DNA of 64,000 nt. Source: Halovivax gelatinilyticus. Lineage in GTDB: Archaea; Halobacteriota; Halobacteria; Halobacteriales; Natrialbaceae. Below are positions 1 through 4,001 of the stretch, one piece after another; position 1 is the first letter of the stretch; each line of letters starts with the position of its first letter. Both the position numbers and the translations under genes were made by a program. The notes under the pieces are model-generated. The model was not told where the DNA came from and ran no database searches. It saw only the letters and a program-made list of their open reading frames with translations. The stretch is taken from the NCBI RefSeq assembly GCF_024300625.1, contig NZ_CP101322.1:2927992-2991991 (forward strand), read 5' to 3'.

Positions 1-579
1 GAGTTTGTCTTCGAGTTCGGCGACCCCGTTCGGGTAGTGAGTCAGCGTCTCGTAAATCTGTGCGATGACGACGCTGGAGGCGGTGTCGGTCGACATGATC
101 GGGTCGAGTTCGGAGAACGTCGAGTTGATCATGTTGAGTTCGGTGTCGCCTTCGACGTCGGTCTCGTGGTGTTGCTGGTGGTGTCCACCGAGCGCACCGA
201 TCTTCGGCACGTCGACGTAATCGTACCAGAAGCGTTCGCCCATGCCGTGATAGAGCGGCATCAGGATCATGTCGTCTCTGACGGCCTCTTCTATCTCGAC
301 GTACGCCTCGTTACGGAGGTCTACGGCGTCAGCTCCTGGGTTGTTGATGATTCGTTCCCAGGCGCGCTGTGCCTTGTCGGCGTGCGATCCGGTCTCGTCG
401 TCGCCACCGTTTCCGCCATCTCCGTCGTCGCCGTCGTCAGCACCGTCGTCGGCGTCATCGTCGTCGCCACCGAAGAGGGCCGAACAACCAGCCAACCCCA
501 CTGACGCACTGCCGCCGAGGAGGGCGAGCATCTTCCGTCGTGAACTGTCCACATCTTGCCGATTCGCGGTATCGGGCAT
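1..579 (-). CDS. ABC transporter solute-binding lipoprotein (peptide-type, family 5), 3' part outside window
   Basis: The gene enters from the left edge; only the first 193 codons are visible. The start has a twin-arginine motif (SRRKML, Arg14-Arg15), a hydrophobic stretch and a lipobox LAGC with Cys32, then an Asp/Gly-rich linker, so a Tat-exported, lipid-anchored surface protein is expected. The segment near the left edge (ELDPIMSTDTAS, then IYETLTHYPNG) is the canonical N-terminal part of peptide-binding SBP_bac_5 proteins. Before it stand about 85 residues (AWERIINNPG, MPLYHGMGERFWYDYVDVP) that resemble the usual C-terminal end of haloarchaeal members, which suggests a circular permutation. 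The substrate cannot be told from this fragment; permease genes would lie to the left. Confidence 0.85.
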   Translation of the reverse strand, partial: MPDTANRQDVDSSRRKMLALLGGSASVGLAGCSALFGGDDDDADDGADDGDDGDGGNGGDDETGSHADKAQRAWERIINNPGADAVDLRNEAYVEIEEAVRDDMILMPLYHGMGERFWYDYVDVPKIGALGGHHQQHHETDVEGDTELNMINSTFSELDPIMSTDTASSVVIAQIYETLTHYPNGVAELEDKL

Positions 580-892: not shown

Positions 893-2056
893 ATGAGTGG
901 GGTACGCGTCGCAGGTGTCGGATTGACGCCGTTTGGAAGCACACCCGATCGGACCGGACGCGATCTGTTCGCACAGGCCGCCTCGTCCGCGTTCGAGGAT
1001 GCCGACGTCCCGCGGTCCGATGTCGAATCGGTCAGGTACGGCAATTTCATGGGTGAACTCGCCGAGCACCAGGGCCATCAGGGGCCACTAATGGCCGAAG
1101 CCGCCGGCGTCACCGCACCGGCGACGCGGTACGAGTCGGCCTGCGCCTCGTCTGCAACGGCGATTCGCGACGCCGTTATCAGCCTGCGAAACGGTGAGAG
1201 CGACGTCTGTCTGGTCGGGGGCGCCGAACGGATGACGAACCTCGGAACCGCCGGTGCGACCGAAGCGCTGGCGATCGCGGCCGACGACCTCTGGGAGGTC
1301 CGCGCTGGCGTCACCTTCCCGGGCGCGTACGGTCTGATGGCACAGGCGTACTTCGACACCTACGGCGGCGGGCGGGTGGATCTCGCTCACATCGCGGTGA
1401 AAAACCACGACAACGCGCTGGACAACGAGAAAGCACAGTACCAACGCGCTATAACCGTCGACGACGTTCTCTCTGCGCCACCGGTTTCGGAGCCGCTCGG
1501 GCTGTACGATTCCTGTCCGATCTCCGACGGGGCCTGTGCACTGATTCTCGTCAGCGAGGAGTACGCCCGAGCGAACGACCTTGACGCACCAGTCTCGATC
1601 ACCGGATCGGGTCAGGGCGGCGATCGCATGGCGCTCCACGACCGAGACCACCTCGCTCGCTCGCCGGCAGCGGACGAGGCGGCCCAGGTGGCCTACGACG
1701 ACGCCGGTATCACGGCAGAAGACGTCGCCGCCGCCGAGGTCCACGACTGCTTTACGATCGCCGAGGTGCTCGCGATCGAATCGCTCGGGATCGTCGACGT
1801 CGGCGACGGTATTTCGGCCGCACGCGATGGGTACACGACAGCCGACGGCCCCGTCCCGGTGAACCTCTCCGGCGGATTGAAAGCGAAGGGCCATCCGGTC
1901 GGAGCAACCGGCGCCTCACAGATCGCCGAGTTGACCAGGCTCCTCCGGGGCGACCACCCACACAGCGACGCGGTCGACGGCGAGACGGTCGTCGCACACA
2001 ATGCGGGTGGCACGGTCGCCTCCTGTGTCGTTCACGTCCTGGAGGTGGGACGATGA
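893..2056 (+). CDS. Thiolase family protein (acetyl-CoA C-acyltransferase type)
   Basis: 387 residues, full length for the archaeal/SCP2-type thiolases, which condense or cleave acyl-CoA thioesters. The nucleophilic Cys84 sits in ESACASSATA, His284 in EVHDCFTIAE and His334 in KGHPVGATG. The C-terminal HNAGG motif near residue 369 carries His where bacterial thiolases have a second Cys, typical of the archaeal group. The stop overlaps the start of the next gene, which encodes a zinc-ribbon/OB-fold protein. In archaea such partners are known to complex with thiolase and HMG-CoA synthase and channel acetoacetyl-CoA. No HMG-CoA synthase gene is adjacent here, so the role could be mevalonate synthesis or acyl-CoA degradation. 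Confidence 0.9.
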   Translation: MSGVRVAGVGLTPFGSTPDRTGRDLFAQAASSAFEDADVPRSDVESVRYGNFMGELAEHQGHQGPLMAEAAGVTAPATRYESACASSATAIRDAVISLRNGESDVCLVGGAERMTNLGTAGATEALAIAADDLWEVRAGVTFPGAYGLMAQAYFDTYGGGRVDLAHIAVKNHDNALDNEKAQYQRAITVDDVLSAPPVSEPLGLYDSCPISDGACALILVSEEYARANDLDAPVSITGSGQGGDRMALHDRDHLARSPAADEAAQVAYDDAGITAEDVAAAEVHDCFTIAEVLAIESLGIVDVGDGISAARDGYTTADGPVPVNLSGGLKAKGHPVGATGASQIAELTRLLRGDHPHSDAVDGETVVAHNAGGTVASCVVHVLEVGR

Positions 2057-2439
2057 CCGACGACGCGGGATCCGCCGGATTCGACGACTGGATGGACGCC
2101 CTCGAGGCGGGCGATCCCTACTATATCGAATGTGCCAACGGTCACGGCTCGCTCCCACCGCGACGGATCTGTCCCGAGTGTGGCGAACAATCGCTCTCGG
2201 AGGAACCGCTCCCCGACACCGGAACGGTGGAGACCTTTTCTACCGTCCACGTCCCGACGCCGGCGTTCCAGGACGACGCGCCCTACGTCACGGCTATCGT
2301 CGACTTCGGACCGGTGCGAGTCACCGGTCGCGTGTTGGATGTCGCCCCCGAGGAGGTAGAACACTCCCTGACGGTCTCGCTCACCAGCACGAAATCTGAG
2401 ACGACGGACGATCGACTAATCGCGTTCGAGCCCGTCTAA
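2053..2439 (+). CDS. Zn-ribbon/OB-fold acyl-CoA-binding protein (DUF35 family)
   Basis: 128 residues. An N-terminal helix is followed by a rubredoxin-like zinc ribbon (CANGHGS then ICPECG) and a C-terminal OB-fold beginning near TGTVETFSTVHVP. This is the layout of DUF35 proteins, which bind acyl-CoA and bridge thiolase to partner enzymes. The ATG overlaps the thiolase stop by four bases (ATGA), so the two are translationally coupled. It ends convergently with meaB, with only 45 bases between. The first metal pair reads C-x3-H rather than C-x2-C, a variation seen in this family; I infer zinc binding but cannot prove it. Confidence 0.88.
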   Translation: MTDDAGSAGFDDWMDALEAGDPYYIECANGHGSLPPRRICPECGEQSLSEEPLPDTGTVETFSTVHVPTPAFQDDAPYVTAIVDFGPVRVTGRVLDVAPEEVEHSLTVSLTSTKSETTDDRLIAFEPV

Positions 2440-2484
2440 GCGTCGCTCGCACGGTTCGCATCCTGGCTGAAAACCCGTTCTGCA

Positions 2485-3588
2485 TCACTCGATCGTCGGT
2501 GATTCGTCGAGTTGGCCGAGGCAGGTTTCGACCGGCTCGAGGAGCTCCCCTGCAATCGTGTACGGGTCCGTTCGTCCGCCGGCGACGGCGCTCGCGAGTT
2601 CGTCGATGCCGCCGACCCGGTCTAGCTCGTCTTCGAGCAATCCGTGGAGGTCCTCTCGAAGCAGGGTCCGGATCTCTTCTGCGTGTCTCCGTCGCGTCCG
2701 CTTGTCGCCCTCACCCGTATCGCGGAGGTGGTCGGCGTGGGCTGCAAACTCGTCGATCAGTTCGTCGACGCCGACGCCGTCGGTCGCGATCGTTTCGACG
2801 ATCGGCGGTCGCCATTCGCTGGGTTCGGCGTCGCCATCGTCGGACGTCTCGACACTTCCTGGTCCGTGGTGTCCGGGGTCGACACTGAAACTCGGTCCGT
2901 CGCCGAGTTCGATCATCTCTAACAGCTCCTGGACGGTCCGGTCAGCGCCGTCTCGGTCCGCCTTGTTCACGACGAACACGTCGGCGATCTCCAGGATGCC
3001 GGCTTTGAGCGTCTGAACGGCGTCGCCGGAGCCTGGCGGGACCAGGACGGCCACGGTGTCGGCCGTCCGGACGATGTCGATCTCGTTCTGTCCAGCACCG
3101 ACCGTCTCGATGATGATCTTGTCCTTGCCGAAGGCGTCCATCGCTTTTACGGCGTCCGCGGTGGCCGTCGAGAGGCCGCCGAGGGTGCCCCGGGCGCTCA
3201 TCGACCGGACGAAGACGTCCATATCGCCGACCGTCGACGCCATGCGGATGCGATCGCCCAGGACCGCGCCGCCCGAAAACGGTGACGAGGGGTCGATCGC
3301 GATAATTCCGACCGTCTCGCCGCGATCGCGGTACGTTTCTGCGAGTTTGTCGACGAGCGTCGATTTGCCGGCACCGGGCGAGCCGGTGACGCCGATTACG
3401 TCCGCCGTGCCGGTGTGATCGAACAGTGAACCGACCAGGCGTCGGTAGCCCGGCGCGCGATCTTCGATCTTGGAGATGGTCCGAGCCAGTGCGCGGTGAT
3501 CGCCCGCGAGGAGCCCGGATCGAAGTGCGTCGATCTCGTCGGTTGGAGCCGATTCTGTCGGCTCGGTTGCTGCGTCGTTTTCAGTCAT
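2485..3588 (-). CDS. meaB: Methylmalonyl-CoA mutase-associated GTPase MeaB
   Basis: 367 residues. This G3E-type P-loop GTPase gates adenosylcobalamin loading and protects methylmalonyl-CoA mutase. Walker A is GSPGAGKST at residues 69-77, followed by IAIDPSSPFSGGA and DRIRM, and the guanine-specificity motif NKAD. A short acidic, His/Gly-containing insert (VDPGHHGPGS region) precedes the last strands of the G domain. The helical C-terminal region, used for dimerisation in the family, is present. The ATG overlaps the stop of the upstream B12-binding subunit gene by four bases, which links it to the mutase. The catalytic large subunit is not in this window. Confidence 0.95.
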   Translation of the reverse strand: MTENDAATEPTESAPTDEIDALRSGLLAGDHRALARTISKIEDRAPGYRRLVGSLFDHTGTADVIGVTGSPGAGKSTLVDKLAETYRDRGETVGIIAIDPSSPFSGGAVLGDRIRMASTVGDMDVFVRSMSARGTLGGLSTATADAVKAMDAFGKDKIIIETVGAGQNEIDIVRTADTVAVLVPPGSGDAVQTLKAGILEIADVFVVNKADRDGADRTVQELLEMIELGDGPSFSVDPGHHGPGSVETSDDGDAEPSEWRPPIVETIATDGVGVDELIDEFAAHADHLRDTGEGDKRTRRRHAEEIRTLLREDLHGLLEDELDRVGGIDELASAVAGGRTDPYTIAGELLEPVETCLGQLDESPTIE

Positions 3589-4001
3589 CGCTCGGGGGCG
3601 TTTTCACGGACGAAGCCGACGGTCTCTTCGATGGACGTACCGGGTCCGAAGATGGCGGAGACGCCTGCGTCTTCGAGCTTCGAGCGGTCTTCGTCGGGAA
3701 TGACGCCACCGACCAGGACGAGTGTGTCGTCTGCGGCGCCGTACTCCTCGAGACCGGCCATGATCTTCGGGACGAGTGTGTTGTGCGCCCCCGAGAGGAT
3801 CGAGATCCCGAGTACGTCGACGTCCTCCTGGACCGCGGCCTGTACGATCTCCTCCGGTGCGTTGTGGAGTCCGGAGTAGATGACTTCGAACCCGGCGTCG
3901 CGGAACGCCCGGGCGATGACGTGGGCGCCGCGGTCGTGTCCGTCGAGTCCAACCTTCGCGACGAGACAGCGGATCGAACGACCCGCCGATTCCGTACTCA
4001 T
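3585..4001 (-). CDS. Methylmalonyl-CoA mutase B12-binding subunit
   Basis: 138 residues, a stand-alone cobalamin-binding domain equal to the C-terminal domain of bacterial mutases. The base-off/His-on motif D-x-H-x2-G is visible as Asp20, His22 and Gly25 in GLDGHDRGAHV. SGLHNAPEEIV, SILSGAH and LVGGVIP follow as expected for this Rossmann-like fold. With a separately encoded large subunit it would interconvert methylmalonyl-CoA and succinyl-CoA. It is the first gene of a two-gene unit with meaB (four-base overlap). The start at 4001 gives a normal N-terminus for the family. Confidence 0.95.
   Translation of the reverse strand: MSTESAGRSIRCLVAKVGLDGHDRGAHVIARAFRDAGFEVIYSGLHNAPEEIVQAAVQEDVDVLGISILSGAHNTLVPKIMAGLEEYGAADDTLVLVGGVIPDEDRSKLEDAGVSAIFGPGTSIEETVGFVRENAPER

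Follow-up and report, generated by a model that had tools for sequence, protein, structure and literature searches.

Gene layout at the locus

The window, i.e. the whole stretch of 64,000 nucleotides that was analysed (G000:C1:2927992-2991991), begins with the 5′ part of a gene for a substrate-binding protein (SBP), which occupies positions 1-579 on the minus strand and is truncated by the window start. The neighbouring genomic DNA completes the gene, G000:C1:2926693-2928570 on the minus strand, which encodes 625 amino acids plus a stop. The window holds residues 1-193 of the 625, starting from an ATG at 579 that is kept among close relatives (M-P/S-D...), and the remainder lies outside it, with the stop at G000:C1:2926693. 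Residues 1-32 (484-579, minus strand) were recognized by inspection as a twin-arginine lipoprotein signal peptide, SRRKMLALLGGSASVGLAGC, with Cys32 in the lipobox; both the twin-arginine motif and the lipobox cysteine expected of haloarchaeal Tat lipoproteins are present (SRRKML...LAGC), and lipid anchoring is predicted. Full-length relatives carry a similar motif, and Pfam TAT_signal matched in the canonical ones. An acidic disordered linker follows at residues 33-65 (385-483, minus strand), with pLDDT below 50 over residues 1-62 of the model described below.

The mature part consists of two blocks. The B block, residues 66-141 (157-384, minus strand), is delimited by the block order of the relatives and by the model; it is the former C-terminal segment of the family and is now N-terminal. 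The block boundaries leave residues 142-144, VEG (148-156, minus strand), as the new junction between the old C-terminus and the old N-terminus. The A block, residues 145-617, is the former N-terminal and middle part, as defined by the alignment of relatives and by Pfam; its first residues, 145-193, lie in the window (1-147, minus strand), and it is followed by a short tail, QEELEEEA. Pfam SBP_bac_5 (PF00496) matches residues 190-591 with 204.8 bits against a curated cut-off of 32.4, and this match omits the moved block.

The SBP gene is adjoined at 893-4001 of the window by a divergent cluster whose translations read as a thiolase, a small zinc-ribbon/OB-fold-like protein, a MeaB-like GTPase and a B12-binding mutase subunit.

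Circular permutation of the chain

The sequence-only reading, made from the front part of the gene, held that an early segment resembles the C-terminal end of SBPs, and the relatives bear this out. Residues 66-141 (AWERIINNPG...FWYDYVDVPKIGALGGHHQQ) correspond to the last ~77 residues in canonical relatives; taken alone, the B block gives E-values of 1e-14 to 1e-27. In the DNA of these relatives, the B block lies directly behind the main block, which together with the E-values excludes a chance resemblance. For example, in the canonical G083, residues 148-620 are matched at 200853-202253 and residues 66-143 at 202263-202496. The same reading placed the canonical N-terminal pieces (ELDPIMSTDTAS, IYETLTHYPNG) after the moved segment, and residues 145-617 indeed form the N-terminal and middle part of the family. 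Its prediction that the normal C-terminal end is missing downstream also holds, since the protein stops at ...GYYLDWQEELEEEA, exactly where canonical relatives enter the segment. No second copy of the C-terminal segment occurs in the three frames within 350 bases downstream of the stop.

Both orders are found among relatives. Of the 125 genomes searched from the same taxonomic family, 28 have the permuted order as a single unbroken match, and approximately 20 more genomes with this order lie outside the family. In 16 other genomes of the 125 the match is split, running from residues 140-148 to ~620 first and then, a few bases on, from residues 60-70 to 142; the canonical relatives in these 16 genomes are 51-58% identical and carry the two blocks in the canonical arrangement. 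Whole-frame BLASTP gives the same two classes, split and unbroken. The junction of canonical genes reads ...NGYYLDWHEADSDAAQQAQDAWERI...FYYDRVDVEPFGAMGEYLQVFNEATLDQ and the stop, permuted genes begin with the signal and linker followed by KAQAAWERI...FWYDYVDVPKIGALG, and they typically finish ...NGYYLDWQ with 5-10 mostly acidic residues before the stop. Separate scans with A and B profiles detect one block of each kind per gene examined, in either order, and no third block, B-A-B arrangement or tandem intermediate appears in the genes so scanned. Among the other SBP_bac_5 genes of the same genome, on which the profile is weak, none has a convincing B block before the A block. One of them (G000:C1:989248-990741, minus strand) contains an in-frame TAA and gives a split match, and is likely a pseudogene or a frameshifted copy.

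A copy of the C-terminal segment placed at the N-terminus, with the normal C-terminus behind it, would look the same in a window that shows just the front part of the gene. It is extremely improbable here, as the whole gene ends before the segment, the downstream DNA holds no copy and the profile scans give one B block per gene; plain duplication or insertion is excluded on these grounds. An artefact of the gene model or assembly might be suspected because the window represents one genome, and is even less credible, given the unbroken order in the 28 family genomes and the cases beyond, in which the signal peptide, the cut and the operon are conserved. The gene has a single copy of the C-terminal segment, at the front, and none downstream; its product is thus confirmed as a true natural circular permutant, neither a duplication nor an insert. 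A canonical chain ends with the hinge strand and the tail of lobe 1; in this protein that segment is found at residues 66-141 and is absent at the end, and the gene is therefore classed as a permuted variant of SBP_bac_5/cluster C and not as an ordinary member.

Predicted structure and anchor position

We compared AlphaFold models built from the permuted family alignment (mean pLDDT 87.3, pTM 0.85, ten-residue means of 81-98 in the B block) and from the alignment of a canonical relative, L065 (pLDDT 85.6, pTM 0.81). In the permuted model, the B block is predicted to comprise two helices and a long strand crossing to lobe 1; helices 66-78 and 83-103 and strand 106-118 correspond to helices 514-528 and 532-552 and strand 555-567 of L065. 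The permuted model shows the two-lobed cluster C fold, as judged via Z values of 25-27 to OppA, DppA, MppA and AapF. In order-dependent alignment, residues 43-592 of the canonical model superpose on residues 1-507, i.e. all of DppA, with Z 34.9, and the model also covers residues 28-504 of AapF. Residues 146-625 of the permuted model superpose on residues 1-441 of DppA with Z 25.8, and only residues 28-437 of AapF are covered, because the counterpart of the remainder of each target sits at the other end of the chain.

The lobes were assigned from the domain limits of the homologues AliD (PMC11192437) and EppA (PMC7312458) and from alignment to OppA, not from coordinates. In AliD, lobe 1 is composed of residues 29-63, 191-296 and 583-617 together with 64-190, and lobe 2 is Domain III, residues 297-582 (PMC11192437). 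By analogy, lobe 2 would contain the cut, inside Domain III, and lobe 1 the new junction; thus, the lipid anchor would shift from lobe 1 to lobe 2, and the two hinge strands would stay. The model suggests that the old termini, adjacent in lobe 1, are now joined and that the new ones are located in a lobe 2 surface loop, with the two-lobed fold, the hinge and the binding cleft preserved. The ancestral last ~77 residues now stand directly behind the signal peptide and linker, ~3 residues before the ancestral N-terminus. The sequence-only reading had the old C-terminus joined to the lipid anchor, which stands; it also had the tethering of the two lobes altered, a point to be refined, since with the cut inside lobe 2 and the new junction inside lobe 1 the hinge need not change and it is the anchor that moves. 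Overall, we consider it very probable that the gene encodes a permuted SBP of the Dpp/Opp type that keeps the two-lobed fold and carries its anchor on lobe 2.

Regarding the linker, its median length is 13 residues in sister canonical genes and 31.5 in permuted genes; length was rejected as a marker of chain order, as the outgroup canonical genes also have long linkers. A long flexible linker (~20-60 residues) would make the position of the anchor nearly neutral, and Tat export of an already folded protein may relax the constraint on chain order. Flips of order are likely tolerated through this combination of flexible linker and folded export.

Operon, selection and ligand

The SBP gene is the first of five in a Dpp/Opp-type operon with the order SBP-PermB-PermC-ATPase-ATPase: downstream of it lie PermB and PermC (BPD_transp_1, OppC_N) and two ATPases with ABC_tran and oligo_HPY. 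Among the relatives fetched with enough flank, nearly all share this five-gene order, whether permuted or canonical. Two further observations concern partner genes at L008, outside the window. In the first ATPase of the operon (L008:4125-5483, minus strand), the stretch from the Walker A motif to the Q-loop is longer by ~100 residues, and its ABC_tran match is split as a result; the second permease (L008:5486-7279, minus strand) is 598 amino acids long, with ~260 residues before the OppC_N segment, i.e. about twice the usual length of OppC/DppC.

Comparison of L057 with L059 gives dN 0.038 and dS 0.342 for block A and dN 0.031 and dS 0.296 for block B, and dN/dS is ~0.1 to 0.25 in most permuted pairs for both blocks. 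These ratios indicate that purifying selection acts on block A as well as block B of the permuted genes and that the permuted form is maintained. One member of the genus of the window, G031 (L071), has a permuted SBP of 48% identity and partner genes that are 64-77% identical to those of the window, which suggests accelerated change of its binding protein.

From its family and operon, the product should be the extracellular lipid-anchored capture protein of a Dpp/Opp-type ABC importer; it would bind and deliver a small solute by a Venus-flytrap mechanism. In DppA, OppA and AliD, an aspartate binds the amino group of the peptide (PMC12136057, PMC11192437). In the present protein and in almost every member of the clade, permuted and canonical alike, this residue is replaced by serine; it is retained in the outgroup canonical genes and in the permuted G352. 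Because the amino-group aspartate is serine in the clade, the ligand may differ from an ordinary peptide. The replacement is not tied to chain order, as serine occurs in both orders of the main clade and aspartate in the permuted G352.

A permuted SBP of the clade also occurs as an orphan in G248, fused behind a PknB-like kinase domain (L119:7394-10291, plus strand; phmmer E-value 5e-13 to PknB; the Pfam Pkinase match stays below the cut-off). No transporter genes were found in the surrounding 18 kb, and the hydrophobic stretch that separates the kinase from the SBP points to a transmembrane receptor. Judging by its degenerate-looking motifs (HGS for HRD, DEWG for DFG), the kinase may be a pseudokinase, with the permuted binding protein as its sensor.

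History of the chain order

A tree of both blocks in fixed order (mixture model, 73 rows) requires five changes of order, and well-supported branches make four of these unavoidable. A tree calculated from the four partner genes, without the SBP and with SH-aLRT only as branch support, likewise requires five, four of them forced. At least four changes of order have thus taken place among the relatives. A single gain, with three canonical lineages outside all permuted genes, was rejected: the AU test under LG+G4 rejects monophyly of the 49 permuted main-clade genes with p = 0.0135, the tested group having been chosen after a tree was seen.

The permuted G352 is placed deep among canonical genes, and its nearest relatives, 63-66% identical, are canonical; it carries the B block of that lineage, and its cut lies in the same loop as in the main clade. 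G352 is thus a clear independent gain of the permutation at the same cut. Conversely, canonical genes of G112, G135 and G323/G408/G451 are nested among permuted ones. G112 is canonical in a genus with five other permuted species, and its B block is 75% identical to that of the permuted L058 and at most 57% identical to those of other canonical genes. The most economical account would be two gains and three reversions, in G112, G135 and G323/G408/G451.

These nested canonical genes might instead have kept the ancestral order, with repeated independent gains in the main clade (up to six, in addition to G352) and no reversion. In most of them, the linker between the blocks is 9 residues long and bears a D-S/T motif resembling that of the outside canonical genes L064, L128, L123 and L169, and G352 demonstrates that independent permutation at this cut does occur. 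This history requires seven changes against five, and the equal-rates model fits better than the gains-only model (lnL -19.90 versus -21.84), by a modest margin. The linker motif was set aside as proof of the ancestral order, as it may be a helix cap regained under selection. We regard repeated gains as the less likely course, and somewhat favour a labile and reversible chain order, in which a single lobe 2 loop was the site of permutation on at least two occasions and the canonical order returned at least two times (G112, G135 and probably the G323 group), with the transporter operons unchanged. Each flip would start from a tandem duplication of the gene, after which the two outer pieces are lost.

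The permutation could also be adaptive, in that, for a particular ligand, attachment through lobe 2 would favour docking, opening of the cleft or export. The permuted order is kept across many species in a 32-row permuted clade, and the authors of the Treponema MglB-2 structure proposed tethering as a possible cause of the permutation in that protein (PMC4990184). Adaptation nevertheless seems unlikely, as the order flips with no change in the operon, the loss of the ligand-anchoring aspartate is independent of order, and the linkers, which range from 19 to 63 residues, leave the anchor geometry slack.

Significance and comparison with known systems

Natural circular permutants are usually taken to reflect one-off ancient events that separate very diverged proteins. 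In the present case, both orders occur at high identity, within one genus (g24) and in one conserved operon, and a second independent case has the same cut. Chain order thus becomes a testable variable, with natural pairs available for folding, Tat export, docking and uptake. Standard order-dependent searches split or truncate such proteins, as seen in the Pfam match that omits the moved block, so that further cases may be hidden.

In the open-access literature, we found no report of natural circular permutation in cluster C SBPs, nor of any binding protein in which a permutation was repeated or reversed; the Treponema case was the only natural permutant found there among binding proteins, and earlier notice elsewhere is possible. 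With the cases of permutation by duplication (saposin/swaposin and DNA methyltransferases; PMC3320104), the present genes likely share the route of tandem duplication and subsequent outer trimming. They differ in that the profile scans revealed no duplicated intermediate and in the possible reversals.

The closest relatives are the cluster C SBPs (Pfam SBP_bac_5; DppA, OppA, AliD, EppA), with which the permuted protein has in common the family, the fold, the five-gene operon and the lipoprotein or exported nature. In contrast to these, two segments are swapped, the anchor is predicted to sit on lobe 2 and the aspartate for the peptide amino group is replaced by serine.

Treponema pallidum Tp0684 (TpMglB-2), described together with its relatives as 'Type Ic / Cluster Bc', is a naturally permuted type I ABC binding lipoprotein (PMC4990184), and is likewise a membrane-anchored, two-lobed binding protein of an ABC transporter. 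However, it belongs to an unrelated subfamily (type I, cluster B), has acquired a fourth crossing of the hinge, and its permuted part is just 13% identical to the counterpart (PMC4990184). The block moved here is still ~40-60% identical between the orders, the chain is cut at another place, and the order has flipped repeatedly. Type Ic is defined by a type I/cluster B fold with the first three strands of the N-lobe at the C-terminus; the present protein has a cluster C fold with the C-terminal segment in front. Thus, it works like TpMglB-2 but is no member of Type Ic.
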